From Agaribacterium sp. ZY112 (GTDB lineage Bacteria > Pseudomonadota > Gammaproteobacteria > Pseudomonadales > Cellvibrionaceae), in assembly GCF_041346925.1 (NCBI RefSeq), contig NZ_CP166840.1, positions 620,001 through 684,000 of the forward strand: 64,000 nucleotides of DNA, given 5' to 3'. Below the pieces are notes generated by a model, which searched no databases, was not told the origin of the DNA, and was given only the letters and a program-made list of their open reading frames with translations. Both the position numbers and the translations under genes were made by a program. Positions 3,920 through 17,587 of this stretch are shown here, one piece after another. Position 1 is the first letter of the stretch. Each line of letters starts with the position of its first letter.

Positions 3920-4453
3920 ATGCCTCACCCGCAACAGACATTGATACACCCAAAGCAGTGGCACTTTTTAGTCAGTGCCCTATTACTTTGCGCTCTGTTT
4001 TCTAACAGCGGTGTAACTTGGGCTGGGGTAAACGATAGTGAACTGCGGGCTACCATTGTCTATAGGCTCTTACAATTTAGTAGCTGGAAAGGCCAAGTAC
4101 CCGGCCAAACCCGAATCTGTGTTATTGGCAGCAAAAGCCTTCACCGAGAGCTGCTCAGTATTAGCCAGCATGTCAAAAAAGGCTTTGACGTTAAGCAAGT
4201 CAACGTACCACCACCTTCATCTTGTGACATTATCGTTGCTGGCCCCAAAGCCCAGAAACTAAAACTGGCCGATATACAGCGTAAATTTTTAATCTGCTCC
4301 AGTTGCAAGTCTGAAGAATTAGCAGCTATTCACCTCTATCGTTTTGGCAATAAAATACAGTTCAATATCAACCGAAAAATAGCCGATACCCGTGGCATTC
4401 ACTTTAAATCAAGCGTCTTAAAAGCCGCTAGTAAAGTGGAGGCGGGCTCATGA
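3920..4453 (+). CDS. YfiR-like periplasmic protein (DUF4154)
   Basis: A 177-residue protein with an N-terminal signal segment (hydrophobic run LVSALLLCALFSNSGVTWA) followed by a YfiR/DUF4154 domain recognised from ELRATIVYRLLQFSSWK, TRICVIGSKSLHRELL and HLYRFGNKIQFNINRKIADTRGIHF. In Pseudomonas YfiR is a periplasmic, redox-sensitive repressor of the membrane cyclase YfiN. Cysteines are present in pairs (CSSCKS), which fits the disulfide control known in the family. The stop overlaps the start of the next gene as ATGA, so the two are translationally coupled, as expected of a sensor-repressor pair. No YfiB-like OmpA lipoprotein gene follows. Confidence 0.82.
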   Translation: MPHPQQTLIHPKQWHFLVSALLLCALFSNSGVTWAGVNDSELRATIVYRLLQFSSWKGQVPGQTRICVIGSKSLHRELLSISQHVKKGFDVKQVNVPPPSSCDIIVAGPKAQKLKLADIQRKFLICSSCKSEELAAIHLYRFGNKIQFNINRKIADTRGIHFKSSVLKAASKVEAGS

Positions 4454-6861
4454 GTAGACGCCAGTCTTTACGCTTTAAGTTACTGCGCATTGTAGGCCTC
4501 ACCTTAATTAGCGCAATCATTGTAAGTGGCTTAATACTATTGGCTTTTGGCCGTGAAGATGCGCAAAAAAACACCCGTAACGACCTATACGTTATTGCCA
4601 ATATTCTCGCTGAAAAAGTGAGCTTTGGTTTAAGCCTTGGCAGCCAATACAGTGAAGAAGTTAGTGAAGCTTTATCCAGTGCGCGCCACCATCAAGATAT
4701 CACTCGTGTCTGTTTGTATCAAAAAGATGGCGCCCTCCATTCAAGCTTTGTATCAAACGCCGCTCTAGGAAACTGCATGAGCAGTTTTGAACTTAATAAA
4801 CAGCGTCAAAGACATCAAAATAAAGGTCATCGTAATGCCCACATCATACAAATCGATGTCATTTTACAAGGTGAACATCTCGGCCAATTAATAATAGAAA
4901 GCTCTGGAAAAAGTTTAGATCGCAGTGTTCTTTTTATGGGATTTTCAATCTTTGGGGCTTTATTTGTTTCTGTTTTATTAGCTTATATTTTTGGCAGTCG
5001 CCAACTAAGTCGCTCGCTACAACCCCTGTACGAGCTTTCCCGCGTTGGAGAACGTATAGCTGACAACCCACTAAGCAGTGAGCGTGCTCAAAAACGAAGC
5101 AATGATGAAGTTGGTGACTTGGTCGACGCCATAAACCACATGCTAGATGTATTTTCATTAGAAAACCAAAAGCTAAAAAGTTCAGAAGCCACATTTAGGG
5201 CCTTAACAGAAAACTCCCCAGTTGGCGTATTTTTAAGAAGCTCGCCCAAAAATTTTGATTACATCAATAAAGCGTGGACAAAGATTACCGGCCTTAATGA
5301 AGAGCATGCCGATAGCTTTAGTGACTTTATTGAGAGTGAATATAAACGCCAATACATAGAGAGAATTAGTAAACTGCAACACGGCCAACTCTTTGTACAA
5401 ACAGAGTTTGAATTTCTTCACTACACCGGTGATTACCGTTATTTACAAGAGCACGTCAGTATCGTTCGTGAAGGTAACCGCATTTTTTACATTGGCACTC
5501 TGGTTGATGTTACGGCATTAAAGAGCGCGCAAAATGAACTCGAAACCCTAGCCTATTACGACCCCCTAACAAACCTGCCTAATCGCCGCTTCCTCAATGA
5601 CCACTTAAAATATGCCTTTGCTAGTGCAGAGAAAAAGAACAATAAAATCGCCGCGTTTATTATGGATCTTGATAACTTTAAACGTGTTAACGATTCTCTC
5701 GGTCACGATGCAGGCGATCGATTATTAGAGCGCAGTGCTGCACGTGTGCGCGAAGCCGTATTTAGAGAAGACGTCGTAGTACGCATGGGCGGCGATGAGT
5801 TTTTAGTCCTAGTTGAAGGTATAGAGAACCTAAATAGTGTTGAGTTTATCTGCAAGCGCTTATTAAAAGCATTAAAAACCGAAACCAAAGACGAGCTGAC
5901 AGTTATCCCCGTAAGTGGCTCCATTGGTGTTGCGCTTTACCCCGATGATGCATCGACCCCCGAAGAACTCTTACGCTTTGCCGATATGGCGCTGTACAAC
6001 AGTAAAGAAGGTGGTGGTAATAGCTTTGCGTGTTACTCCTCTAAACTTGACGAGGAAATTCGTGAACAAATACGCATAGAACAAAAACTTCGTCATGCGA
6101 TTGAGCATCGCGAAATTGATGTTCACCTTCAACCACAATACAAAGCAGACACCCTAGAAGCCTGCTGGGCCGAAGCTTTAGTACGCTGGTTTGATAAAGA
6201 CGAAGGTTTTATCTCACCAGCCAAGTTTATTCCTATTGCAGAAGATACCGGCCTCATTCATGACTTAGGTGCTTTTGTACTCGACCGTGTCTGTGAGATT
6301 TTAAGAGATCACGGCGAAGCACTTAGAGATCGGGGCATAGCAGGTATTAGTGTTAATTTAAGTGGCCAACAATTTTTCTCTAGCACTTTAGAAGCAGACA
6401 TAGGCGAAACACTTAAGAAATATGGTATTTCACCCGCACTGGTTGAATTCGAATTAACGGAATCTACTGTCACCGACGACATGGATAGAGCCATTGAAAT
6501 TATGGCCGCATTACGTGACGTTGGCTGCCAACTCAGTATTGATGACTTTGGTACAGGTTATAGTTCATTAAGCTACTTAAAGAAATTCCCAATCACCAGC
6601 CTTAAAATCGATAGATCCTTTGTTATGGATCTACCCGAAAATAATAATGATAGAGAAATCACCTGCGCAATTATCAACCTTGCCCACAACCTTGGTATGA
6701 CGGTGGTGGCCGAAGGCGTTGAAACACGAGAGCAAGCCGATTTCTTAGGCGAAAACAAGTGTGAATACCTGCAAGGTTATTATTTAGCCAAGCCTCAAAG
6801 TGTGCACGATATTATCGCTAGTAAAAACATATCCCAATACGCAAAACCAGCTAAAAGTTAA
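4450..6861 (+). CDS. Membrane c-di-GMP enzyme: CHASE8-like, HAMP, PAS, GGDEF, EAL
   Basis: An 803-residue inner-membrane protein. Transmembrane helices near residues 12-32 and 158-180 flank a periplasmic CHASE8-like sensor. HAMP (about 180-235), PAS (about 250-365), GGDEF (370-525) and EAL (545-790) domains follow. The cyclase signature RMGGDEF (about 445-451) is intact, but the inhibitory RxxD site is lost (FRED in its place). The phosphodiesterase signature is complete: AEALVRW, SVNLSGQQF, ELTES, IDDFGTGYSSL, KIDRSFV, AEGVET. So it may both make and degrade c-di-GMP. GGAGG at 4438-4442 sits 7 nt before ATG. Coupling to the YfiR-like gene suggests periplasmic control resembling YfiN, here with PAS and EAL added. 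Confidence 0.9.
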   Translation: MSRRQSLRFKLLRIVGLTLISAIIVSGLILLAFGREDAQKNTRNDLYVIANILAEKVSFGLSLGSQYSEEVSEALSSARHHQDITRVCLYQKDGALHSSFVSNAALGNCMSSFELNKQRQRHQNKGHRNAHIIQIDVILQGEHLGQLIIESSGKSLDRSVLFMGFSIFGALFVSVLLAYIFGSRQLSRSLQPLYELSRVGERIADNPLSSERAQKRSNDEVGDLVDAINHMLDVFSLENQKLKSSEATFRALTENSPVGVFLRSSPKNFDYINKAWTKITGLNEEHADSFSDFIESEYKRQYIERISKLQHGQLFVQTEFEFLHYTGDYRYLQEHVSIVREGNRIFYIGTLVDVTALKSAQNELETLAYYDPLTNLPNRRFLNDHLKYAFASAEKKNNKIAAFIMDLDNFKRVNDSLGHDAGDRLLERSAARVREAVFREDVVVRMGGDEFLVLVEGIENLNSVEFICKRLLKALKTETKDELTVIPVSGSIGVALYPDDASTPEELLRFADMALYNSKEGGGNSFACYSSKLDEEIREQIRIEQKLRHAIEHREIDVHLQPQYKADTLEACWAEALVRWFDKDEGFISPAKFIPIAEDTGLIHDLGAFVLDRVCEILRDHGEALRDRGIAGISVNLSGQQFFSSTLEADIGETLKKYGISPALVEFELTESTVTDDMDRAIEIMAALRDVGCQLSIDDFGTGYSSLSYLKKFPITSLKIDRSFVMDLPENNNDREITCAIINLAHNLGMTVVAEGVETREQADFLGENKCEYLQGYYLAKPQSVHDIIASKNISQYAKPAKS

Positions 6862-8047: not shown

Positions 8048-9493
8048 ATGTTTTTTAGCGACGAGCGCCACAACTTCTTTAAACCTCTGACCAGCAAGTA
8101 CCGCGAGCAAATCGTGCAATGCTTAACGCTGCTCTATCAACGCCTCTATAGTGCTAATGCCGATTACGGGCAGAGCTTAAAGCGCGCACAAGTTATCGAG
8201 CTCTTCGAAGAAGCACTCGCCCGCTCACAAGCCCCTGTTTTTGATGAGAACAGTGATGACAGCGATCAACGCTTTCGCAATCACCGCGAACAAGCCAGTT
8301 GGATACTTAAAGGCTTATTAGAAGCCGGCTGGATAGAAAAACAAGTTGATAATGCCACGTTCAAATCTAGCTACCCTTTTTCGCGCATGGGGCGTTTATT
8401 CACTCAGAGCTTGTGTGATGCCGATAGCAGCCAGGTTCGTACTCGCCACCGCAATACACGTAATACACTGAATGCGCTTGAGGCTTTTTTAAGCCGTGGA
8501 GAAATCTACGATTTACTAGATGCCTTTGATTATAGTGAACGCATTATTACAGACTTTAGCGACATAATCGCCGAACTTGAAGACTTAAAACGTACTTTAG
8601 TGCGTGAAGTTGAAGCTCAGCAACTCGTACATGAAGCCAGCGACCAGTTTTTTGCCTATATGGAACAGCGCTTTCAACCCGACATTGCTGTACGCCTCTC
8701 TGCCGACAGTGTTGAAAAGCACCGCGACGATATTGGCCGCGTAATTACCAGTATTCGCCGCAAGAGCAAAGAATTCAAACAAGAAGCCGAGGCCGCCTTA
8801 CGACAAAGTGCGCCCCAGCTGTGCAATGAGCAACAAAGTTATTTGTGGTTTGTACTCGACACAATAGAAATGCGTATGCGCAATGCCGCCGACATTATGC
8901 TGCCCGCTTTGCGTCGCGCCTTACACGGCTTCACCAAGCGCGCCGACATTGTCATCCGCCAACTGAGTTTTCTCAGTGCTCAAGAAAGTGACAGCTTGGT
9001 TGAGGTCTGCCGCGAACTGTCCGATTTAGATGAGGCACAATACCAACAGCGCCTAAATCAAGCAGCTAAATCCATGTCGACCATGCGCCTACGCCTACTT
9101 GACCCTCGCCACGTACGCCTAACAGAGCGCAAGAAAAAAGGCCCAGTGGATACACGCATGGATGAACACCGAGATGTCGATCTTGGCGCACGCCAAAACT
9201 TGATGGTGCAACAACTGCTCGATCAGGCCTTTGTGTTTAACCGAGAAAACTTACAAAACTATATGTGTGCGGCCCTCAGTGAAGGTAAAACAATTCACAC
9301 CCGCGACCTACCCGTCGACAACGCTCACGATTTACTTGCACTTGCCCACGTTATTGAGCTGGGCAGCGTCAACAACCTAGATTCAGATTTGAAATTCGAA
9401 ATTCACTATCAGGGCCAGTGCGATAATTTTTCGCCGTATTACCAACGCTCAGACGAATTCACCATCGCCTTAATCGATACCAGCCATGCTTGA
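8048..9493 (+). CDS. jetA: Wadjet subunit JetA (MukF-like kleisin)
   Basis: A 481-residue protein assigned as JetA from its N-terminal winged-helix-like segment (NFFKPLTSKYREQIVQCLTLLYQ and WILKGLLEAGWIE), long helical middle, and its position as first of four genes with MukE-, MukB- and TOPRIM-like products. In Wadjet, JetA is the kleisin bridging the two heads of the JetC dimer. The N-terminus resembles the DUF5716 form rather than the DUF3375 form, which would point to a type II-like system; that subtype call is from memory and less certain than the subunit role. The last 8 bases overlap jetB. Confidence 0.82.
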   Translation: MFFSDERHNFFKPLTSKYREQIVQCLTLLYQRLYSANADYGQSLKRAQVIELFEEALARSQAPVFDENSDDSDQRFRNHREQASWILKGLLEAGWIEKQVDNATFKSSYPFSRMGRLFTQSLCDADSSQVRTRHRNTRNTLNALEAFLSRGEIYDLLDAFDYSERIITDFSDIIAELEDLKRTLVREVEAQQLVHEASDQFFAYMEQRFQPDIAVRLSADSVEKHRDDIGRVITSIRRKSKEFKQEAEAALRQSAPQLCNEQQSYLWFVLDTIEMRMRNAADIMLPALRRALHGFTKRADIVIRQLSFLSAQESDSLVEVCRELSDLDEAQYQQRLNQAAKSMSTMRLRLLDPRHVRLTERKKKGPVDTRMDEHRDVDLGARQNLMVQQLLDQAFVFNRENLQNYMCAALSEGKTIHTRDLPVDNAHDLLALAHVIELGSVNNLDSDLKFEIHYQGQCDNFSPYYQRSDEFTIALIDTSHA

Positions 9494-10163
9494 AGAACTA
9501 TTAAACAATGTACTGGCCAAGCTTAATCTCAGCCTGGCCGACTTTAGTGAACTTATAAACCGTTTACTTGATTACGGTGTCATCAACCGCGACGAAAGTG
9601 CCGTTGAAGCCCAGCTTTACGACCGCTACCTAAGTTGTAGCGAACTTGTTGAAGACTATTTAAATGTGATAGGCATTCGCTTAATGCACGATGCCCAATT
9701 TTTAAGTTTAAGAGCTTTTCCACCAAGCGCCGAAGTACCCGGTTTAATCGACGACATTCACCGCCCTTTTAACGGCGGCATGCGCTATCGTCCCAACCAA
9801 CAAGAAGTCGCGTGTATCTTAGTCTTGCGGGTTGAATATGAAAAAGCAGTACGTGAAGGTAAAGTCGATGACAAAGGCTGTGTGCTACTCGCTTTTGAAG
9901 CATTAAGTATGTCAATGACCAACTTACTTAAACGCAGCTTGCCCGAAAACATCAGTGAACGAAAAAATCTGTTTACTCGTTTACGTCAATTGCGCCTTAT
10001 CCATTTTTCTAGTGACGACATGCTCGAAGGCGATGAGGAATATTGGTTAAGCATTCAGCCATCAATTGTTAATTTTGTTAGCAGCGATGCTCTGACTAAT
10101 TTATATCCGAGTGAAGAACAAAATAGCTTAAACCAAGCGTCGGAGGATGGGCATGTATTGTAA
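9486..10163 (+). CDS. jetB: Wadjet subunit JetB (MukE-like)
   Basis: A 225-residue DUF4194/MukE-like protein, tandem winged-helix subunit that binds JetA and the DNA within the JetABC condensin. Recognisable stretches are DYLNVIGIRLMHDAQFLSLRAFPP and QQEVACILVLRVEYEKAVREGKV, and the late LRQLRLIHFSSDDMLEGDEEYWLSIQPSI. It starts inside the end of jetA (8-base overlap) without a clear ribosome site, so translation is probably coupled, and its 3' end runs into jetC. Length is as expected for JetB. Confidence 0.82.
   Translation: MLEELLNNVLAKLNLSLADFSELINRLLDYGVINRDESAVEAQLYDRYLSCSELVEDYLNVIGIRLMHDAQFLSLRAFPPSAEVPGLIDDIHRPFNGGMRYRPNQQEVACILVLRVEYEKAVREGKVDDKGCVLLAFEALSMSMTNLLKRSLPENISERKNLFTRLRQLRLIHFSSDDMLEGDEEYWLSIQPSIVNFVSSDALTNLYPSEEQNSLNQASEDGHVL
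10142..10146 (+). promoter_or_regulatory. Ribosome binding site that sets the jetC start
   Basis: GGAGG directly abuts an ATG at 10147 but is 6 nt from the in-frame ATG at 10153. The second is therefore the likely start (MYCKRAVL). The site lies inside the end of jetB. Confidence 0.7.
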
Positions 10164-13100
10164 GCGCGCTGTACTTGTTAACTGGGGTAATATCCCCGCG
10201 CAAGAATTTGATTTTGGTCCAATAAATTTATTCTCTGGCGGCAATGGTTCGGGTAAAACAACCGCTGCCGACGCCTTACAATCTTTAATGACGGCAGCCC
10301 ACGAAAACTTATTTAATTTCAACCCAGGCCAAGATGAAACAACGCAACGCGGCCGTGGCGGAAAACAGGTTCGCACTCTACAAAGTTATGTGCTCGGTTG
10401 TGATGATGGCAGTTACGCTCGCCCTCGTATTTGTGATGCTTATATCGCTGCTAACTTTCATCCCACTCAAGGTGAAGATGGCGATAAGTTTGTTGCCTTA
10501 ATGTGCATGCGCGCCAGTTTAGATACAGCAGGCACCAACAGGCAGGCTCGCCTAGATGAACTGCAGTTTTTAATTATCCCCCATGAAGAAGTTTTTTTAT
10601 CTGATCTTGTAAAAAAGGATAAAGGTGGAAAATACGTAGTGCCTTTAGCCGACTTACGTACGCAGCTGATGAAAAAATTCGGACGCGACCAAGTTGAAAT
10701 CTACGATAAAAAAGGACCCTACTTGCGTCGACTCTACGGCATATTCCGTGGCGAACGTGGAGCCGTTAGCGATAGAGAAGCCAAACATGCGGCACGAACC
10801 TTCTCTAATTTTATGGCCTATAAACCGGTAAAAAGCATTACCGACTTTGTTGCCAAAGAAGTACTTGAACCCAAAGACTTAAGTGAAGACATTAAAGAAG
10901 TCAGTGAGCTAATGAAAACCATTAGCTCCATGGAGCAAGACACTCGACAAATCAACGATGCCATCAACAACTTAGAGCAGGCGCAAAATAGCACACAAGT
11001 CTATATCAGTAATTTTCAGCAGCGTGCTCTTTATCGTTATGCTGAGCAAAGTCGCCAAGCGAATTTAAAGCAAAGCGACTACCTGAAAGAAAAACAGCGT
11101 CAGAGTGACTTAAATAAAGCCATTAGCGAATGTAAGCAGCAGTCCGAGATCAATAAAGATAAACGTGTAAGCCTGCAGCAAGAATTAGTTGAACTGACAG
11201 CACAACGCCAAGGTATCGGTGCACTTAAAGATAAAGATCAACTAGAAAGCGATATTGAACGCATACAAGATCAGTTAAGCGCCTTAGCCTTACCTTTATT
11301 ACACGAAGACCAAAAAATATCGCGCAACGTAAATAGTGCCAAATGCTTACAGGCCGAACTTAAAGATCCTGAATCGCTACTCAATCTAAATGATTCAGAG
11401 CGCAGTAATTTACAGAAAAAACTTAAAGCACTAATTGATGCCGGTAGTGACACGGATATAAGCGCTCAAACCCTGCAAACCAAAGACTGGATTAACAGTG
11501 ATGCTCTTGAGCAGCGCTTAAACAGCTTGGGGCAACTTGAAGGCTTGCACAACCAATGTGCGGAGCTTATTTTTAACCAAGATAAAAACAGTATTGCCGA
11601 ACTTATCTATGGCAACTTGCATAAAAAACGTGAGCAAAGCGCAAAAGCTAAAACTCAGATGCAGGCCAAACAGATAGAAGTGCAACGTCTACAACAGCAA
11701 CGTGTTAGCTATCCAGCTCATGTTGAACTTGCTTTGCGCGCCATTATTGAACAATGCCCAGAAGCCAAACCGGCAGTGCTTTGTGACTTCATTGAAGTAA
11801 AAGATCCAGACTGGCAAATGGCCATTGAAGGCTACTTAGGTGGCGCCCGTTTTGGCATTGTGGTTGAGCCTGAATATGAAGCCGAGGCCATTCAAATCGT
11901 ACGAGAATTACCGGGGCGACGAAATAACGCTCGCGTAGTTCAAGGCTCCAAGGCTCAACGTGATGCTTCACGTTTACAAGCCGACAACAACAGCATTGTT
12001 GATGTCATGCGTTTTGAACACAAAATTGTAGAGCACTATATTCGAGCAAGCTATGGCAATGTTCGCCGCGTAGACAACCGCGAACAATTAAAATCGACCT
12101 CACGCGGGCTCACTAAAAATGGTTTAGGTTCCGGCTCTTATTCCATGTTCCGTTGTGACATTGATGAAGCTGAACTGGTATTTGGCCAAGGCGCGCGTGA
12201 ACGCGCCCTTAATGCCAAGCAGCAACAGCTACTACAATTACAACAACAAGCCAACACACTTGAAAATCAAGTGCAAAACCTAACAAGCTTACACAGCGAA
12301 TTAAGCGCGTTTAAACATATTCAATGCAGCCAATTAATTCAAGATATGCTACAACAGCATCATGCATTAGAGAGAGCTGAAACAAATTTAAAGAATTTAG
12401 ATCTTGATGATTTTTCTGATCTAGAAGAAAAGCTAAATAATCTACAGCACAAGGTCGTTGAACAAGACCAGCTCAACGATAAACTAAGCATTACTTTAGG
12501 CGGCTTAGAAACAGAGCTAAAAATCAGCCAGCAACGTGCAAATAAATTAAGTTCAGAGCAAGAACAAATTAGCTCTGAGCAAGATCGCCAGGAACAAGAA
12601 GTCCTCAAGCTTGCAAGTTATAATAGCGATTTCAACGCAGAAGAAGCGTTAGCCCATGCTGATGAAGAAGCCAAACAGAGCTCATTTAGCTTTGAAGATA
12701 CCTGCCATGAAGCACAACGAGAACTAGAACGTACAGAGCGTCGTATTAGCGATACGATTATGGAGCACAACCGCAGTGCCCAGCGCTACAACAGTATTCA
12801 ATATCAAAGTCCAAACGACAACCACGAGAGCATTCACGCTTTCTCTGGCATGCTAAAAATACACGATGAACTCGCTCGTATTTATAACAGTCTTAAAAAC
12901 AATGTATTAGTTGGTAAGCACGAAAAACTGCTTGTTTTACGTGAAAGTTTTAATACCACCTTTGTCACCAGCCTTTGCCATTCAATTTATCAGAGTATTA
13001 ACGATGGTAAACGCTGTCTCGATGAGCTCAACAAAGAACTTGAGCACCATCGTTTTGGTGCTGATAGAGAACGCTTTTATTTCGCTTACGACTGGCTACC

Positions 13101-13776
13101 TGAATTTAAAGAGTACTGGGATTTCTTTAAAGACATTATCAACAACCCAAGTTTAGGCGATGGTAATACCCTATTTGAAGTTGAACTAAAACCTAATTCG
13201 ATGGCTATTCGAGACAAGCTACTAAGTATGTTGCTTGATAAGGATGAGCAAAGTGCCTTAAATGAATTACGTCGTATTAGTGATTATCGTAACTACCGCC
13301 GTTACGAAATTTATAAAGAACCTTTAGATAAACAACCGATACCACTTTCGACCTACGGTACAGGTTCTGGTGGTCAGCTTGAGACACCCGCGTATATTAT
13401 TCGCTCTGCGGCCATCACCTCCGCATTTCGATTTAATGAAGGTCAAAGCCACTGTCGCTTAGTACTGGTTGATGAAGCCTTCTCTAAAATGGATGAAAGT
13501 CGATCGCGTGAAGTCATTAACTACCTTACCGAAAGCTTAGGTTTACAGCTTATTTTTATTATGCCCTCGAGCAAAAGCGGGCCATTTATGGATTTAATCA
13601 GCCATCAAGTTGTCTTTAGTAAATGCCCTAGTAATGAGCCCGTTGGTGAATTAAATACCCGTGTATTGGTGGACAGAAAGGTCTGTAATCCCGAGAAAAT
13701 CAAAGATCTTTGGGAGCGCCATCGCCACACAATTCGCCAACAGGCCAGCTTAGACTTTATGCAAGACTTTGCTTAA
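10153..13776 (+). CDS. jetC: Wadjet SMC-like ATPase JetC (MukB-like)
   Basis: About 1207 residues, SMC/MukB-like. Walker A GGNGSGKTTA is near residues 29-37, where it should be in a head domain. Two long Gln/Glu/Leu-rich coiled-coil arms (about 250-490 and 690-930) flank a hinge-like domain containing VLCDFIEVKDPDWQMAIEGYLGG. The C-terminal half of the head has the signature-like STYGTGSGGQLETP (about 1068) and Walker B RLVLVDEAFSKMDE (about 1104). JetC dimerises and extrudes DNA loops, letting Wadjet sense small circular DNA. All ATPase motifs are intact. It overlaps jetB and is followed by a 96-base gap with a hairpin before jetD. Confidence 0.92.
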   Translation: MYCKRAVLVNWGNIPAQEFDFGPINLFSGGNGSGKTTAADALQSLMTAAHENLFNFNPGQDETTQRGRGGKQVRTLQSYVLGCDDGSYARPRICDAYIAANFHPTQGEDGDKFVALMCMRASLDTAGTNRQARLDELQFLIIPHEEVFLSDLVKKDKGGKYVVPLADLRTQLMKKFGRDQVEIYDKKGPYLRRLYGIFRGERGAVSDREAKHAARTFSNFMAYKPVKSITDFVAKEVLEPKDLSEDIKEVSELMKTISSMEQDTRQINDAINNLEQAQNSTQVYISNFQQRALYRYAEQSRQANLKQSDYLKEKQRQSDLNKAISECKQQSEINKDKRVSLQQELVELTAQRQGIGALKDKDQLESDIERIQDQLSALALPLLHEDQKISRNVNSAKCLQAELKDPESLLNLNDSERSNLQKKLKALIDAGSDTDISAQTLQTKDWINSDALEQRLNSLGQLEGLHNQCAELIFNQDKNSIAELIYGNLHKKREQSAKAKTQMQAKQIEVQRLQQQRVSYPAHVELALRAIIEQCPEAKPAVLCDFIEVKDPDWQMAIEGYLGGARFGIVVEPEYEAEAIQIVRELPGRRNNARVVQGSKAQRDASRLQADNNSIVDVMRFEHKIVEHYIRASYGNVRRVDNREQLKSTSRGLTKNGLGSGSYSMFRCDIDEAELVFGQGARERALNAKQQQLLQLQQQANTLENQVQNLTSLHSELSAFKHIQCSQLIQDMLQQHHALERAETNLKNLDLDDFSDLEEKLNNLQHKVVEQDQLNDKLSITLGGLETELKISQQRANKLSSEQEQISSEQDRQEQEVLKLASYNSDFNAEEALAHADEEAKQSSFSFEDTCHEAQRELERTERRISDTIMEHNRSAQRYNSIQYQSPNDNHESIHAFSGMLKIHDELARIYNSLKNNVLVGKHEKLLVLRESFNTTFVTSLCHSIYQSINDGKRCLDELNKELEHHRFGADRERFYFAYDWLPEFKEYWDFFKDIINNPSLGDGNTLFEVELKPNSMAIRDKLLSMLLDKDEQSALNELRRISDYRNYRRYEIYKEPLDKQPIPLSTYGTGSGGQLETPAYIIRSAAITSAFRFNEGQSHCRLVLVDEAFSKMDESRSREVINYLTESLGLQLIFIMPSSKSGPFMDLISHQVVFSKCPSNEPVGELNTRVLVDRKVCNPEKIKDLWERHRHTIRQQASLDFMQDFA

Positions 13777-13822
13777 GCCCAAAGAGCGTTATATATTAGG
13801 GGTAAGGAAAGAATTTGACTAA

Positions 13823-13855
13823 GGGTCAGGATCTGCATTCTGACCCCAGCTTTTT
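13823..13855 (+). terminator. Hairpin with T run between jetC and jetD
   Basis: Arms GGGTCAGGAT (13823-13832) and ATTCTGACCC (13837-13846) pair over 10 bp with one G-T wobble around the tetraloop CTGC, followed by CAGC and TTTTT (13851-13855). It could terminate or attenuate transcription before jetD. The GGGTCAG/CTGACCC arms also resemble the REP-like hairpins linked to RAYT transposases in gammaproteobacteria. Confidence 0.6.
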
Positions 13856-13872
13856 GACACAAGGCCTAAGCC

Positions 13873-15030
13873 ATGAACGCTAATCGACAACGCCCAAGCT
13901 GGGTTGATGAAGAACCGCTCATTCAAGACGTGTTAAACCGTTTTCTCGATCAACTTGATCGAAATGTGAAGTTGCAGTTCAAAGTCAATGCTAAAAGCAC
14001 CCCCCAGCTATTTGACTATGTCGATGATGACCCACAATACCTCTGGCATTTACTTAAAAGCCTCGACAACGAATACCATATTCTTACCGTACATAAACAG
14101 CGCAACAAAAGCGGCCGAGATGCCTATGAAAACGCGCTCTTAAGCTTTAATCCTGATAAAGAAGCGCAAGTTAGATCTTGGCTTAATCGCCCCGCTTTTG
14201 ACCCCTACACCCTAACTTGGAATGAACGCTTTGAAAAAGTTCGCCATTTATTTGAAGACAAAGGCCAAGCGTTAATCAAACCTTTGCGTGTAGAAGGCCG
14301 CAGTGCCGGAGAAGTACTGCAAGCCTTTGCCAGCCTAGCTGACGAAATCACCCACCCTCAGACCTTGCGTAACTTAAGCGCCAAATGCTTTTGGGGAGAC
14401 AGCAAGTTCCTCGATAATAAATCGGATCTATTGGCTGAGCTGTTCCCTAATGCCAGTATGGCTGTGCAGCCCCGTCCGATTATGATGAATGTCATTCTTC
14501 CCGAGAAAATCGAAGAAGTTATTTTTGTTGAAAACCAAGATAGCTTTTTGATGTTAAAACAACTAGCTGATACCCACCCACGCTTTATGCGCAGTGCATT
14601 TGTCTACAGCTCTGGCTTTAAAGGTAGCTCTACCAAGGTTCGCAAGCGTGGCCAAGCCGTATTTAGTGCTTTAAATCTGCCCCAGCAAAGCATGCTTGAA
14701 GCATTTCAAGACTGGTGGTTTAACGAAGGAGAACAACCCTGTTATTTTTGGGGGGATATGGACTATGCAGGCCTAGGCATATTAAAAGCCTTACGCCGTA
14801 GTTTCTTAGGTATGCAAGCTTGGCAAGTAGGTTACGAGCCAATGATGAACTTTCACGATAAAGGCCACGGCCATCAAATTCGTGACAGTAAAAAAATGAA
14901 ACAACTCGACCCCGGCACTTGCGGATGTCGTTACGCTGATGATGTCTTATTGCCAGCCATACGCAACGCCCAGCGCTTTCTCGACCAAGAAATTATTGCA
15001 CTGATGGAATTTGAGCAAAGCCTTAATTAA
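13873..15030 (+). CDS. jetD: Wadjet nuclease JetD (DUF3322/DUF2220, TOPRIM)
   Basis: A 385-residue protein with an N-terminal arm/helical part of the DUF3322 type (NAKSTPQLFDYVDDDPQYLWHLL) and a C-terminal DUF2220 TOPRIM domain. The TOPRIM acidic residues are visible: Glu in EEVIFVENQDSFLML (about 220) and the DxD pair in YFWGDMDYAGLGILKAL (about 294-296). JetD is the toprim nuclease that cleaves closed circular plasmids after loop extrusion by JetABC. The catalytic set looks intact. AAGG lies 9 nt before the ATG. The gene follows a hairpin rather than overlapping jetC, so its dose may be set separately. Confidence 0.9.
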   Translation: MNANRQRPSWVDEEPLIQDVLNRFLDQLDRNVKLQFKVNAKSTPQLFDYVDDDPQYLWHLLKSLDNEYHILTVHKQRNKSGRDAYENALLSFNPDKEAQVRSWLNRPAFDPYTLTWNERFEKVRHLFEDKGQALIKPLRVEGRSAGEVLQAFASLADEITHPQTLRNLSAKCFWGDSKFLDNKSDLLAELFPNASMAVQPRPIMMNVILPEKIEEVIFVENQDSFLMLKQLADTHPRFMRSAFVYSSGFKGSSTKVRKRGQAVFSALNLPQQSMLEAFQDWWFNEGEQPCYFWGDMDYAGLGILKALRRSFLGMQAWQVGYEPMMNFHDKGHGHQIRDSKKMKQLDPGTCGCRYADDVLLPAIRNAQRFLDQEIIALMEFEQSLN

Positions 15031-15262
15031 TAGCTTTGCGATCATTTTTAGTGCTCCTCACACAGCACAAACTAAACAAAGCCGCTCTAATACTACAAGT
15101 AGCGCCAAGTGATTTATAACAAATTTGCTACTGTTTCTATATTAAGCCGCTATTTTTAAAGCAGCTCTACTTTGCACCAAGGGCAAAGCTATCGATATAC
15201 TGCCAATCAATAAAAACCAGAACAGGCCCTTTATTTAGCTATTTGGGCCGGGGACTTCATTG

Positions 15263-17587
15263 ATGGCCATAAAAAAAGCACTATTGCTAACAAGCCTGCC
15301 GCTAGCTCTGTTCGCGTGCTCAGAAGTAAAAGACGACAGTAAAATAAAGCAGCCGCCAGCACCCACCAAACTAATGATTGCCGACTTTGAGGACGAAGCC
15401 AGTGCATCATTATTTGAACTTGAAAGCAGCACCGCAAAGCGTATTAAAAATGATAGTGGCCATGCTATTGAACTTAGTTTTAATAGCCAAGAAAGCCATT
15501 CAAACGCGAGCATTGTGCCAACAAGCCCTTGGAACTGGAGTAATATCGGTGACTTTAATTTAAGTGCCGACATTAGTAACCCCGGTGACGTTAGCGCCCA
15601 CCTTTATGTCGTTGTTGAAGACATCACCGGCTGGCCTCACGCACGCACCGTCAGTATTCCTGCCCGCTCAAGCGACACCTATTATCTAGAATTAAAAGGC
15701 CCACAATTAGAGTTTGATAGCGGTCTACGTGAAAACCCACCAGCGTGGTATAGCGATGATAAAAAAATGTTTTGGCTATACGGCCGCAAAGCTATGCAAC
15801 TCGATGCTATTACTAAAATCACATACTCTCTACGCAGCAACAATGAAGATAAAAGCCTGATTATCGATAATATTCGGCTTACAGGGCTACCAGAAGGTAA
15901 TGCCTATTATCTAAGTGACATTGCAGACAAGTTTGGACAAAGCAACAAACTCGATTTTCCTTTAAAAATACACTCCGACAAACAACTTAAGCAGCTCGCC
16001 AAAGAAGAACTAGCAACACTTGCAAAAGAAGGCCCGATGGCTGGCCGAAGCCGCTTTGGAGGCTGGGTCGATGGCCCCAAGCTCGAAGCAAGCGGTTTCT
16101 ATCGCACCGCAAAAGTTGATGGTAAATGGGCCATGGTCGACCCCGAAGGTTATCTCTTCTTCTCTTCAGCTTTAGCCAACATTCGCATTGCCAATACCAC
16201 CACACTTACAGGTGTCGATTTTAAAGACGATAGCGTTCGTTATATAGACCCCGAAGACGTCACCCCAGAAGATTCGCTTGGCATCCGTCCCGTATCCAAA
16301 GAAGCACAAAAAACACGCTATATAAGCTCGGCCTTGCGCCACAATATGTTCACTTGGCTGCCTGACTACGATGATGAACTGGCCAACCATTACAGCTATC
16401 GCCGCAGCAGCCACATGGGGCCAATGAAGCACGGAGAAACATTTAGCTTCTATCAGGCCAACCTAGAGCGTCGTTATGGTGAAAATTACCCCGACTCCTA
16501 TATTGACACCTGGCGTGACGTCACCATTAAGCGCTTTTTAAACTGGGGCTTTACTTCAACAGGTAATTGGACCGACGCCTCTTTCTACCAGATGGACCGT
16601 ATTCCTTATTTTGCCAATGGTTGGATTATCGGTGATTTTAAAACCGTCACCACAGGCCACGACGTGTGGCACGCCCTACCCGACCCCTTTGACCCCGAAT
16701 TTGAACGCCGCGCCAAGCTCACCACTGAAGTAATAGCCGAAGAAGTAAAAAACAACCCTTGGTGTGTGGGTGTCTTTATCGATAATGAAAAGAGCTGGGG
16801 CAATATGAATGATGCCAAAGGCCGCTTTGGCGTGGCGACGAACACACTCACCCGCAGCGATAGCGACAGCCCGACAAAAGCAGAATTTACCCGCCTTTTA
16901 AAAGAAAAATACGGCACAATCGACAAGCTAAACGCCGCATGGGCTACTGATTTGAGCTCTTGGCAAGAACTCAGCGAACACGGAGTAGAGATCAACAACT
17001 ACGATAACAGCACAATAAATACCGACCTAAGCATGCTTATGCGTGCCTATGCTGACCAGTACTTCCGCATCGTACACGACGCCTTAGCCGATGTGCTGCC
17101 CAACCATATGTATATGGGGGTACGCCTTGCCATGTGGGGCGTCACTAAAGACGTATTGGCCAGTGCGGCCAACTATGTCGACGTGATGAGTTACAACGTT
17201 TATGAAGAGGGCCTGCATCCACGTACCTGGGACTTCCTAGAAGAGATCGACAAACCTAGTATCATTGGTGAGTTCCACATAGGTGCAACCAGCGATACAG
17301 GGCTTTACCATCCAGGCCTTATCCACGCTGCAGATCAAGCCGATAGAGCACGGATGTACAAAGAATATATGTACGATGTTATAGACAACCCCTACTTTGT
17401 TGGCGCACACTGGTTCCAGTATTTAGATTCTCCGCTCACAGGCCGAGCCTTTGACGGTGAAAATTACAACACAGGTTTTGTTACCGTAACCGATACCCCC
17501 TATGTCAACATGGTTGAAGCGGCTAAAGAAATAAACCAAGCACTTTACCCCCGACGTTTTGGTAATAAGAGCGATGATCAACATTAA
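15263..17587 (+). CDS. GH50 beta-agarase, lipoprotein
   Basis: About 774 residues. The N-terminus is a lipoprotein signal with lipobox LALFACS, so the enzyme should be anchored in the outer membrane. Residues 30-210 are a beta-rich carbohydrate-binding-like domain (SPWNWSNIGDFNLSADISNPG); the rest is the GH50 barrel (YFANGWIIGDFKTV, WCVGVFIDNEKSWG, VDVMSYNVYEEG, SIIGEFHIGATSDTG). Glu in DNEKSWG (about 509) and Glu in IGEFHIG (about 670) are the expected acid/base and nucleophile. GH50 enzymes release neoagarobiose or neoagarotetraose from agarose. ATG 15263 is preferred over TTG 15260 because a GGGGA site precedes it at good spacing. The next small gene overlaps the end. Confidence 0.9.
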   Translation: MAIKKALLLTSLPLALFACSEVKDDSKIKQPPAPTKLMIADFEDEASASLFELESSTAKRIKNDSGHAIELSFNSQESHSNASIVPTSPWNWSNIGDFNLSADISNPGDVSAHLYVVVEDITGWPHARTVSIPARSSDTYYLELKGPQLEFDSGLRENPPAWYSDDKKMFWLYGRKAMQLDAITKITYSLRSNNEDKSLIIDNIRLTGLPEGNAYYLSDIADKFGQSNKLDFPLKIHSDKQLKQLAKEELATLAKEGPMAGRSRFGGWVDGPKLEASGFYRTAKVDGKWAMVDPEGYLFFSSALANIRIANTTTLTGVDFKDDSVRYIDPEDVTPEDSLGIRPVSKEAQKTRYISSALRHNMFTWLPDYDDELANHYSYRRSSHMGPMKHGETFSFYQANLERRYGENYPDSYIDTWRDVTIKRFLNWGFTSTGNWTDASFYQMDRIPYFANGWIIGDFKTVTTGHDVWHALPDPFDPEFERRAKLTTEVIAEEVKNNPWCVGVFIDNEKSWGNMNDAKGRFGVATNTLTRSDSDSPTKAEFTRLLKEKYGTIDKLNAAWATDLSSWQELSEHGVEINNYDNSTINTDLSMLMRAYADQYFRIVHDALADVLPNHMYMGVRLAMWGVTKDVLASAANYVDVMSYNVYEEGLHPRTWDFLEEIDKPSIIGEFHIGATSDTGLYHPGLIHAADQADRARMYKEYMYDVIDNPYFVGAHWFQYLDSPLTGRAFDGENYNTGFVTVTDTPYVNMVEAAKEINQALYPRRFGNKSDDQH

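Follow-up and report, generated by a model that had tools for sequence, protein, structure and literature searches.

A complete Wadjet operon in Agaribacterium sp. ZY112, and JetABC of its relatives as a probable resident SMC complex with an optional JetD nuclease

Introduction

Is a complete Wadjet operon simply an anti-plasmid system, or can its JetABC part be a resident chromosomal complex to which the JetD nuclease is an optional addition? The question is raised by a 64,000-nucleotide stretch of Agaribacterium sp. ZY112 (Cellvibrionaceae; contig NZ_CP166840.1, positions 620,001 to 684,000), hereafter the window, which is part of a single-contig 4.28 Mb genome. It holds a complete and intact Wadjet operon of four co-directional open reading frames (ORFs) in the order jetA-B-C-D (8048-15030; all positions follow the numbering within the window). 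The available text of a review gives the presumed mechanism as ATP-driven loop extrusion by JetABC, followed by cleavage by JetD once a small circle has been fully extruded (PMC10586767).

From a comparison across relatives we conclude that JetABC is probably a resident, largely vertically inherited second structural maintenance of chromosomes (SMC) complex with a chromosomal role, JetD being an optional module. The observations behind this concern gene content, intact motifs, prevalence, constraint and JetD turnover. The wider form of the reading, in which JetABC is mainly a chromosomal or repair SMC complex in the family and in several related ones and JetD has been plugged in or dropped many times, has about an even chance of being right. 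On that reading, a switch from defence to housekeeping, or even the reverse, would be going on at present and be open to observation in sister species.

Results and Discussion

Prevalence of JetABC in the family and beyond

JetC was searched for in 144 genomes of the window's family (128 of them good), 390 genomes of its order and 303 of its class, with a profile of the window's JetC clade at E 1e-20 (family and class) or 1e-100 (order). Presence counts come from six-frame profile searches, because lists of longest ORFs hide genes (the JetD of G098 was missed that way; G, g, L and C numbers are our handles for genomes, genera, loci and contigs). JetC was found in 123/144 family genomes (115/128 among the good ones), near-universal in the lineage though not fully so, and JetA in the same 123. 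At the same threshold only 17 of the 303 class genomes, the window's included, carried JetC; at 1e-100, 88/390 genomes across the order did. Wadjet is reported in about 5-10% of bacteria in the available text of the review (PMC10586767), and the family is therefore the exception. There was one JetC match per genome in all cases except three: G014 and G111 carry a second, distant JetC, and in G023 the gene is split. Smc was present in 142/144 family genomes, and the window's genome encodes both Smc and ScpA. The nearest named match to the window's JetC is from Agaribacterium haliotis (Cellvibrionaceae), with 74% identity.

Distribution of JetD

The PADLOC profile detected JetD in 49/144 family genomes, all of them among the 123 with JetC. 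Our own profile, built from 26 JetDs mostly of the family, returned the identical 49 genomes, and a biased profile is therefore rejected as the reason why JetD is missing. A JetD of the window's kind is lacking in 74 of the 123 JetC-bearing genomes, and counts of "Wadjet defence" made from JetC or JetA alone would mislabel many family loci. Pfam PF09983 matched in 61/144 genomes. Of these, 48 belong to the 49 above, four lack JetC, and nine carry JetC together with another JetD-domain protein, which in G014 and G111 adjoins the second JetC. Among the 49, the JetD of G091 is only a fragment and the match in G112 contains a stop. JetD and jetC stand on different contigs in G104 and G140, where they may or may not be linked. 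In genus g8 (21 genomes, 20 with JetC) no genome has a JetD of the window's kind.

The same mixture was observed outside the family. Among 70 JetC-bearing genomes of the order sample, 15 have JetD beside jetC (with a stop in G492), 54 have none, and the remaining one has a broken, unlinked JetD remnant. JetD follows jetC in 14 of 32 named loci and is absent within 9 to 10 kb in 17; in the last one the contig ends 73 bases past jetC. Within Microbulbifer, JetD is present in M. yueqingensis, M. halophilus, M. litoralis, M. rhizosphaerae and M. thermotolerans, and absent from M. hainanensis, M. flavimaris and M. guangxiensis (M. taiwanensis cannot be judged).

One explanation of such loci is that JetABC without JetD is still a defence system, which extrudes plasmid or phage DNA and silences, sequesters or mis-segregates it uncut, or which uses an unlinked nuclease. 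The JetDs located away from jetC in G041, G045, G131, G141 and G142 would suit this explanation, as would the other JetD-domain proteins elsewhere in nine JetD-less genomes. However, 65 of the 123 JetC-bearing genomes gave no match by any of three JetD profiles, and no single gene replaces jetD across the JetD-less genera. Ten genes adjoining jetC in JetD-less genomes included none that matched a nuclease family (three matched no Pfam family). Defence genes are, moreover, seldom near-core at housekeeping sites, where jetABC stands in many genera (see below), and we consider this explanation unlikely.

A significant score for a JetD remnant within 4 kb 3' of jetC in JetD-less genomes was obtained only in G091. 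A review names an IFDR motif for the JetD contact of the JetB N-terminus (PMC10586767, available text). No difference in this motif between JetD-bearing and JetD-less genomes was visible by eye in the 77 of 81 JetBs recovered (G122 was unreadable), and a loss of the contact motif in JetD-less copies is thus unsupported.

Turnover of JetD between relatives

JetD presence switches no fewer than 15 times along the JetC tree and 16 times along the Smc tree, with 5 and 6 changes, respectively, within the 23 sampled g22 genomes; these counts do not separate gain of JetD from loss. The JetD tree agrees with the JetC tree at r 0.73 in 30 genomes (at most 0.51 under permutation), vs. 0.57 for JetD and Smc, and the agreement between JetD and JetC favours an old association with many losses. 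The JetDs of G128, G116 and G062, each on a long branch by itself, may have been gained separately.

Ten genome pairs were compared 3' of jetC. In six pairings, in g22 and g23, the absence of jetD shows as a clean gap of about 0.9 to 1.3 kb, beyond which the 3' flanks match. The gap is about 2.6 kb in G128/G127, there is no matching 3' flank in G062/G060, and both members carry jetD in two pairs. The jetC of G091 is 99% identical to that of the JetD-bearing G108, though the 3' part of its jetD has been replaced by about 3.4 kb. At this locus (L114, 5783-8427) jetD is cut after about 110 codons, and the replacing segment holds an ORF of 624 amino acids. Another arrangement was observed in G004, a member of the window's genus (C102/C101, L073/L247), which has a highly diverged jetABCD together with a JetD of the genus's usual kind on another contig; perhaps jetABC was replaced there and the old nuclease left behind.

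Constraint on JetABC without JetD

The ratio of nonsynonymous to synonymous substitution rates (dN/dS) was estimated from 13 JetD-less pairs, and was computable in 11 for JetA, in 8 for JetC (the rest being saturated) and in 13 for Smc. It was 0.013-0.053 for JetA and 0.012-0.067 for JetC, vs. 0.013-0.068 for Smc. JetD itself gave 0.035-0.218 in five JetD-bearing pairs, a sixth pair being saturated. Walker A and Walker B are intact in 46/46 JetD-less JetCs, and the signature was matched in 45 of them; in G095 the pattern caught another stretch first. There are no stops inside JetC matches; G119 has a shortened JetC and G023 a split one. One stop codon each was found in ten JetA matches; in four of them (G039, G042, G063 and G084) it is the natural end, since the ORF is full length (476-479 amino acids). 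Judged from these sequences, JetABC is maintained by selection without the nuclease. Sister species with a clean jetD gap and constrained jetABC consequently offer matched natural pairs for asking what JetABC does free of the nuclease.

These data bear on the simplest alternative, namely ordinary Wadjet defence and nothing else: JetABCD would cleave small plasmids, its frequency would reflect plasmid pressure, and JetD-less copies would be decaying or recently disarmed. Such copies of jetA and jetC should then show decay, but dN/dS is low wherever computable and the ATPase motifs are intact. A whole genus (g8) living without a JetD of the window's kind, and a prevalence so much higher in the family than in the class, also fit it poorly. 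On the other side, the window's own system is complete and intact, and some further points in favour of ordinary defence are given below together with other difficulties. On balance we regard it as an improbable account, about on a par with defence by JetABC without JetD.

Chromosomal site and inheritance

We compared 81 loci, that of the window and those of 80 further JetC-bearing family genomes (out of 122). At 43 of the 81, at least two linked site genes were found out of glnS, cysS, hemB, ligA, zipA, a transglycosylase gene and one unnamed gene (identities by Pfam on representatives). Two arrangements occur, glnS-cysS-(hemB)-jetABC and zipA-ligA-transglycosylase-hemB-jetABC, and in many loci of the second Smc lies a few kb from jetABC. 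The JetC and Smc trees of the 81 genomes, both quick LG+G4 trees in which some long branches meet, share 35/78 splits (shuffled mean 0.17, maximum 1), and the correlation between their path lengths is 0.58 (no more than 0.17 in permutations). Of the genera with several members, 7/11 form one clade in the JetC tree and 11/11 in the Smc tree. The exceptions look like replacement. In g13, jetABC is still at the ligA-hemB site in G041 and G045, whose JetD lies elsewhere, and a complete jetABCD that clusters with g17, g25 and g28 occupies a different site in G042, G043, G046 and G048.

In two JetD-less Hahella loci (L061:7952-9801 and L069:7921-9809), jetB and jetC are separated by two genes of the same strand, one for an ada-type regulator/methyltransferase and the other for a PF09859 damaged-DNA oxygenase. 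Because of these two loci, a third explanation is a live rival: the main task of JetD-less JetABC would be DNA repair, as for Smc5/6 or Rad50 complexes, and not bulk chromosome folding. The frequent presence of ligA as a neighbour also points this way. However, the ada pair was found in only 2/32 named loci and in none of the 81 family loci, where no repair gene besides ligA recurs. We consider a mainly repair function the least probable of the three alternatives and quite doubtful.

Points against a resident JetABC

Several observations weigh against a resident JetABC with a chromosomal role, and some of them favour ordinary defence. JetD is present in all 4 genomes of the window's genus. The window's jetABC is not at a housekeeping site, and in other genera it likewise stands elsewhere. 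Consequently, the evidence for domestication stems from relatives. The JetC and Smc trees agree only partly, and JetC moves horizontally in some genera: g1, g13, g18 and g23 do not hold together in the JetC tree, which indicates some transfer. JetC is somewhat faster than Smc in most pairs (dN ratio with median 1.25 and range 0.37-3.75 over the 13 JetD-less pairs, near 3 or above in three). Finally, JetABC is absent from 13/128 good genomes, and in 14 JetABC-lacking genomes examined no PF13558 protein was found in its place, so JetABC is dispensable in some lineages. Replacement by MukB or MksB was rejected, none being found in those 14 genomes.

A resident condensin role had been guessed at in the note that first described this locus from the sequence alone (the original prediction), on the grounds that no defence island surrounds the operon. 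The guess now has strong comparative support. This comes not from the absent island but from relatives, in which JetABC is near-core, stands at housekeeping sites in many genera and is strongly constrained, and in which JetD has changed repeatedly.

In the mechanism that we propose, JetABC (SMC ATPase, kleisin and KITE subunits) would use ATP to extrude DNA loops, and JetD, as a TOPRIM nuclease, would cut a small DNA circle once it has been fully extruded. Beside Smc, JetABC would serve the chromosome independently of JetD, in its organisation, segregation or repair. JetD would be an optional anti-plasmid module, lost many times in relatives (loss being favoured over gain) and kept in the window's genome. 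The comparison across relatives suggests that JetABC pays its way without JetD; as the window's genome retains JetD, the strain probably has both functions.

The operon in the window

All four Jet subunits match their own PADLOC profiles over almost their entire length, and each also has a Pfam match. The features are the following.

8048..9493, + strand: jetA, 481 amino acids, kleisin subunit; PADLOC PDLC00445 JetA1, E 3.9e-212; Pfam PF18982 JetA
9486..10163, + strand: jetB, 225 amino acids, KITE/MukE-like subunit; PADLOC PDLC00482 JetB1, E 5.3e-86; PF13835 DUF4194
10147..13776, + strand: jetC, 1209 amino acids, SMC ATPase; PADLOC PDLC00515 JetC1, E 0
10237..10260, + strand: JetC Walker A motif GGNGSGKT, coordinates checked
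13366..13377, + strand: JetC ABC signature motif SGGQ, coordinates checked
13462..13482, + strand: JetC Walker B motif VLVDEAF, coordinates checked
13823..13846, + strand: terminator-like hairpin followed by a T run in the jetC-jetD gap; fold z of the gap -1.8
13873..15030, + strand: jetD, 385 amino acids, TOPRIM-type nuclease subunit; PADLOC PDLC00527 JetD1, E 1.4e-115; PF09983 JetD_C
14530..14532, + strand: JetD Glu220 in the VENQDSF motif (VENLDSF in the aligned MksG), a predicted catalytic residue, coordinates checked
14755..14763, + strand: JetD Asp295-x-Asp297 in the GDMDYAG motif (GDLDLDG in the aligned MksG), a predicted metal site, coordinates checked

The 5' end of jetB overlaps jetA by 8 bases. 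Residues 3-1208 of JetC align to positions 1-1211 of PDLC00515, and since homology begins at residue 3, the start of jetC is likelier at 10153 than at 10147. The Pfam content of JetC comprises PF13558 SbcC_Walker_B, PF13555 and the SMC hinge. The original prediction of a complete jetABCD operon, with Walker A, signature and Walker B in JetC and a Glu and DxD in JetD, is confirmed, and a degraded or partial system is ruled out by the intact motifs. Glu220, Asp295 and Asp297 are invariant in 26/26 aligned JetDs. Searched against solved chains at E up to 1, the JetD profile matched a single one, that of the MksG nuclease (8b7f, E 9.5e-6), and the alignment pairs both motifs; a TOPRIM fold is predicted from this homology. 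Single-sequence searches with JetA, JetB, JetC and JetD matched no solved chain.

By profile, the operon is a member of Wadjet type I. DUF3375 is a marker of type II. JetA had been described as closer to the DUF5716 kind, which agrees with the description of JetA1 as DUF5716 family in PADLOC, but the type II subtype inferred from it was mistaken. The hidden Markov model search suggested for each subunit gave matches for all four, JetA and JetD included, and the best scores were all type I (JetA1, JetB1, JetC1 and JetD1). JetC2 reached E 1.4e-5 vs. E 0 for JetC1, and JetA2 gave no match at 0.001; a weak JetC2 and a weak JetD3 were the only matches outside type I among the window's Jet proteins. 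These scores rule out type II.

The hairpin in the jetC-jetD gap may uncouple jetD from jetABC transcription. This is suggestive only, as terminator-like sites in the region number 6 vs. 9.5 expected and the hairpin is not significant by number. In G003 (L072, 10342-10400), a hairpin precedes eight Ts in the same gap (fold z -0.8). In other genomes the jetC-jetD gap is often near zero.

Surroundings of the operon

No defence system was detected by PADLOC in 40 of the 51 other window ORFs of at least 120 amino acids; the 11 unscanned ones include everything after 56,200. The claim that no defence island surrounds the operon therefore stands for the scanned ORFs. Six of these gave PADLOC matches, each of which is either weak or a relative of another enzyme (a ThiF protein, a TatD DNase, a DEDDh exonuclease-like protein, a 2-oxoglutarate oxygenase-like protein, a GGDEF regulator and an agarase). 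Upstream of jetA are a gene without Pfam match, a cyclic di-GMP regulator and a YfiR-like gene. The YfiR-like periplasmic protein gene overlaps the HAMP-PAS-GGDEF-EAL gene (3920-6861), likely a YfiR-controlled cyclic di-GMP pair. Downstream (15260-17587) is an agarase-like protein with an Agarase_CBM and a glycoside hydrolase 42 match, which fits an agar-degrading marine host.

Comparison with known systems

The window's operon shares with Wadjet type I the four subunits, the gene order jetA-B-C-D, the type I profiles and the nuclease motifs, which are also those of MksG. It differs in that JetABC of its family is near-core and often without JetD, and in that its JetC and JetA are far in sequence from the solved examples: their clade profiles matched no PDB chain at E 0.01, in a PDB copy in which the E. 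coli and PA14 JetABC chains were not confirmed. In the literature searched, no lineage is described with near-core type I JetABC, housekeeping sites, near-Smc constraint and repeated shedding of JetD, and within the same collection no paper was found on Wadjet in Cellvibrio or Microbulbifer.

Wadjet-group complexes without a nuclease are nevertheless already in print, and the operon list of PMC7617805 (Data S1), a source available in part, may include some of the family's operons. Like the JetD-less JetABC, MksBEF of Pseudomonas aeruginosa is a Wadjet-group SMC complex without nuclease that works beside Smc, and it was likely derived from JetABCD by loss of JetD, according to the available text of PMC10586767. 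The difference is that nuclease loss is inferred for one lineage there, whereas in the window's family JetD differs between sisters repeatedly at one site. MukBEF and several other Wadjet-group members lack MksG/JetD, as stated in the available part of PMC7617805. MukBEF is thus a condensin of the same group that resembles the JetD-less JetABC of the family, but the family keeps Smc, which MukBEF hosts are not known to have. The likeliest job of JetABC would be that of MukBEF and MksBEF, i.e. organising or segregating the chromosome, here carried out beside Smc.

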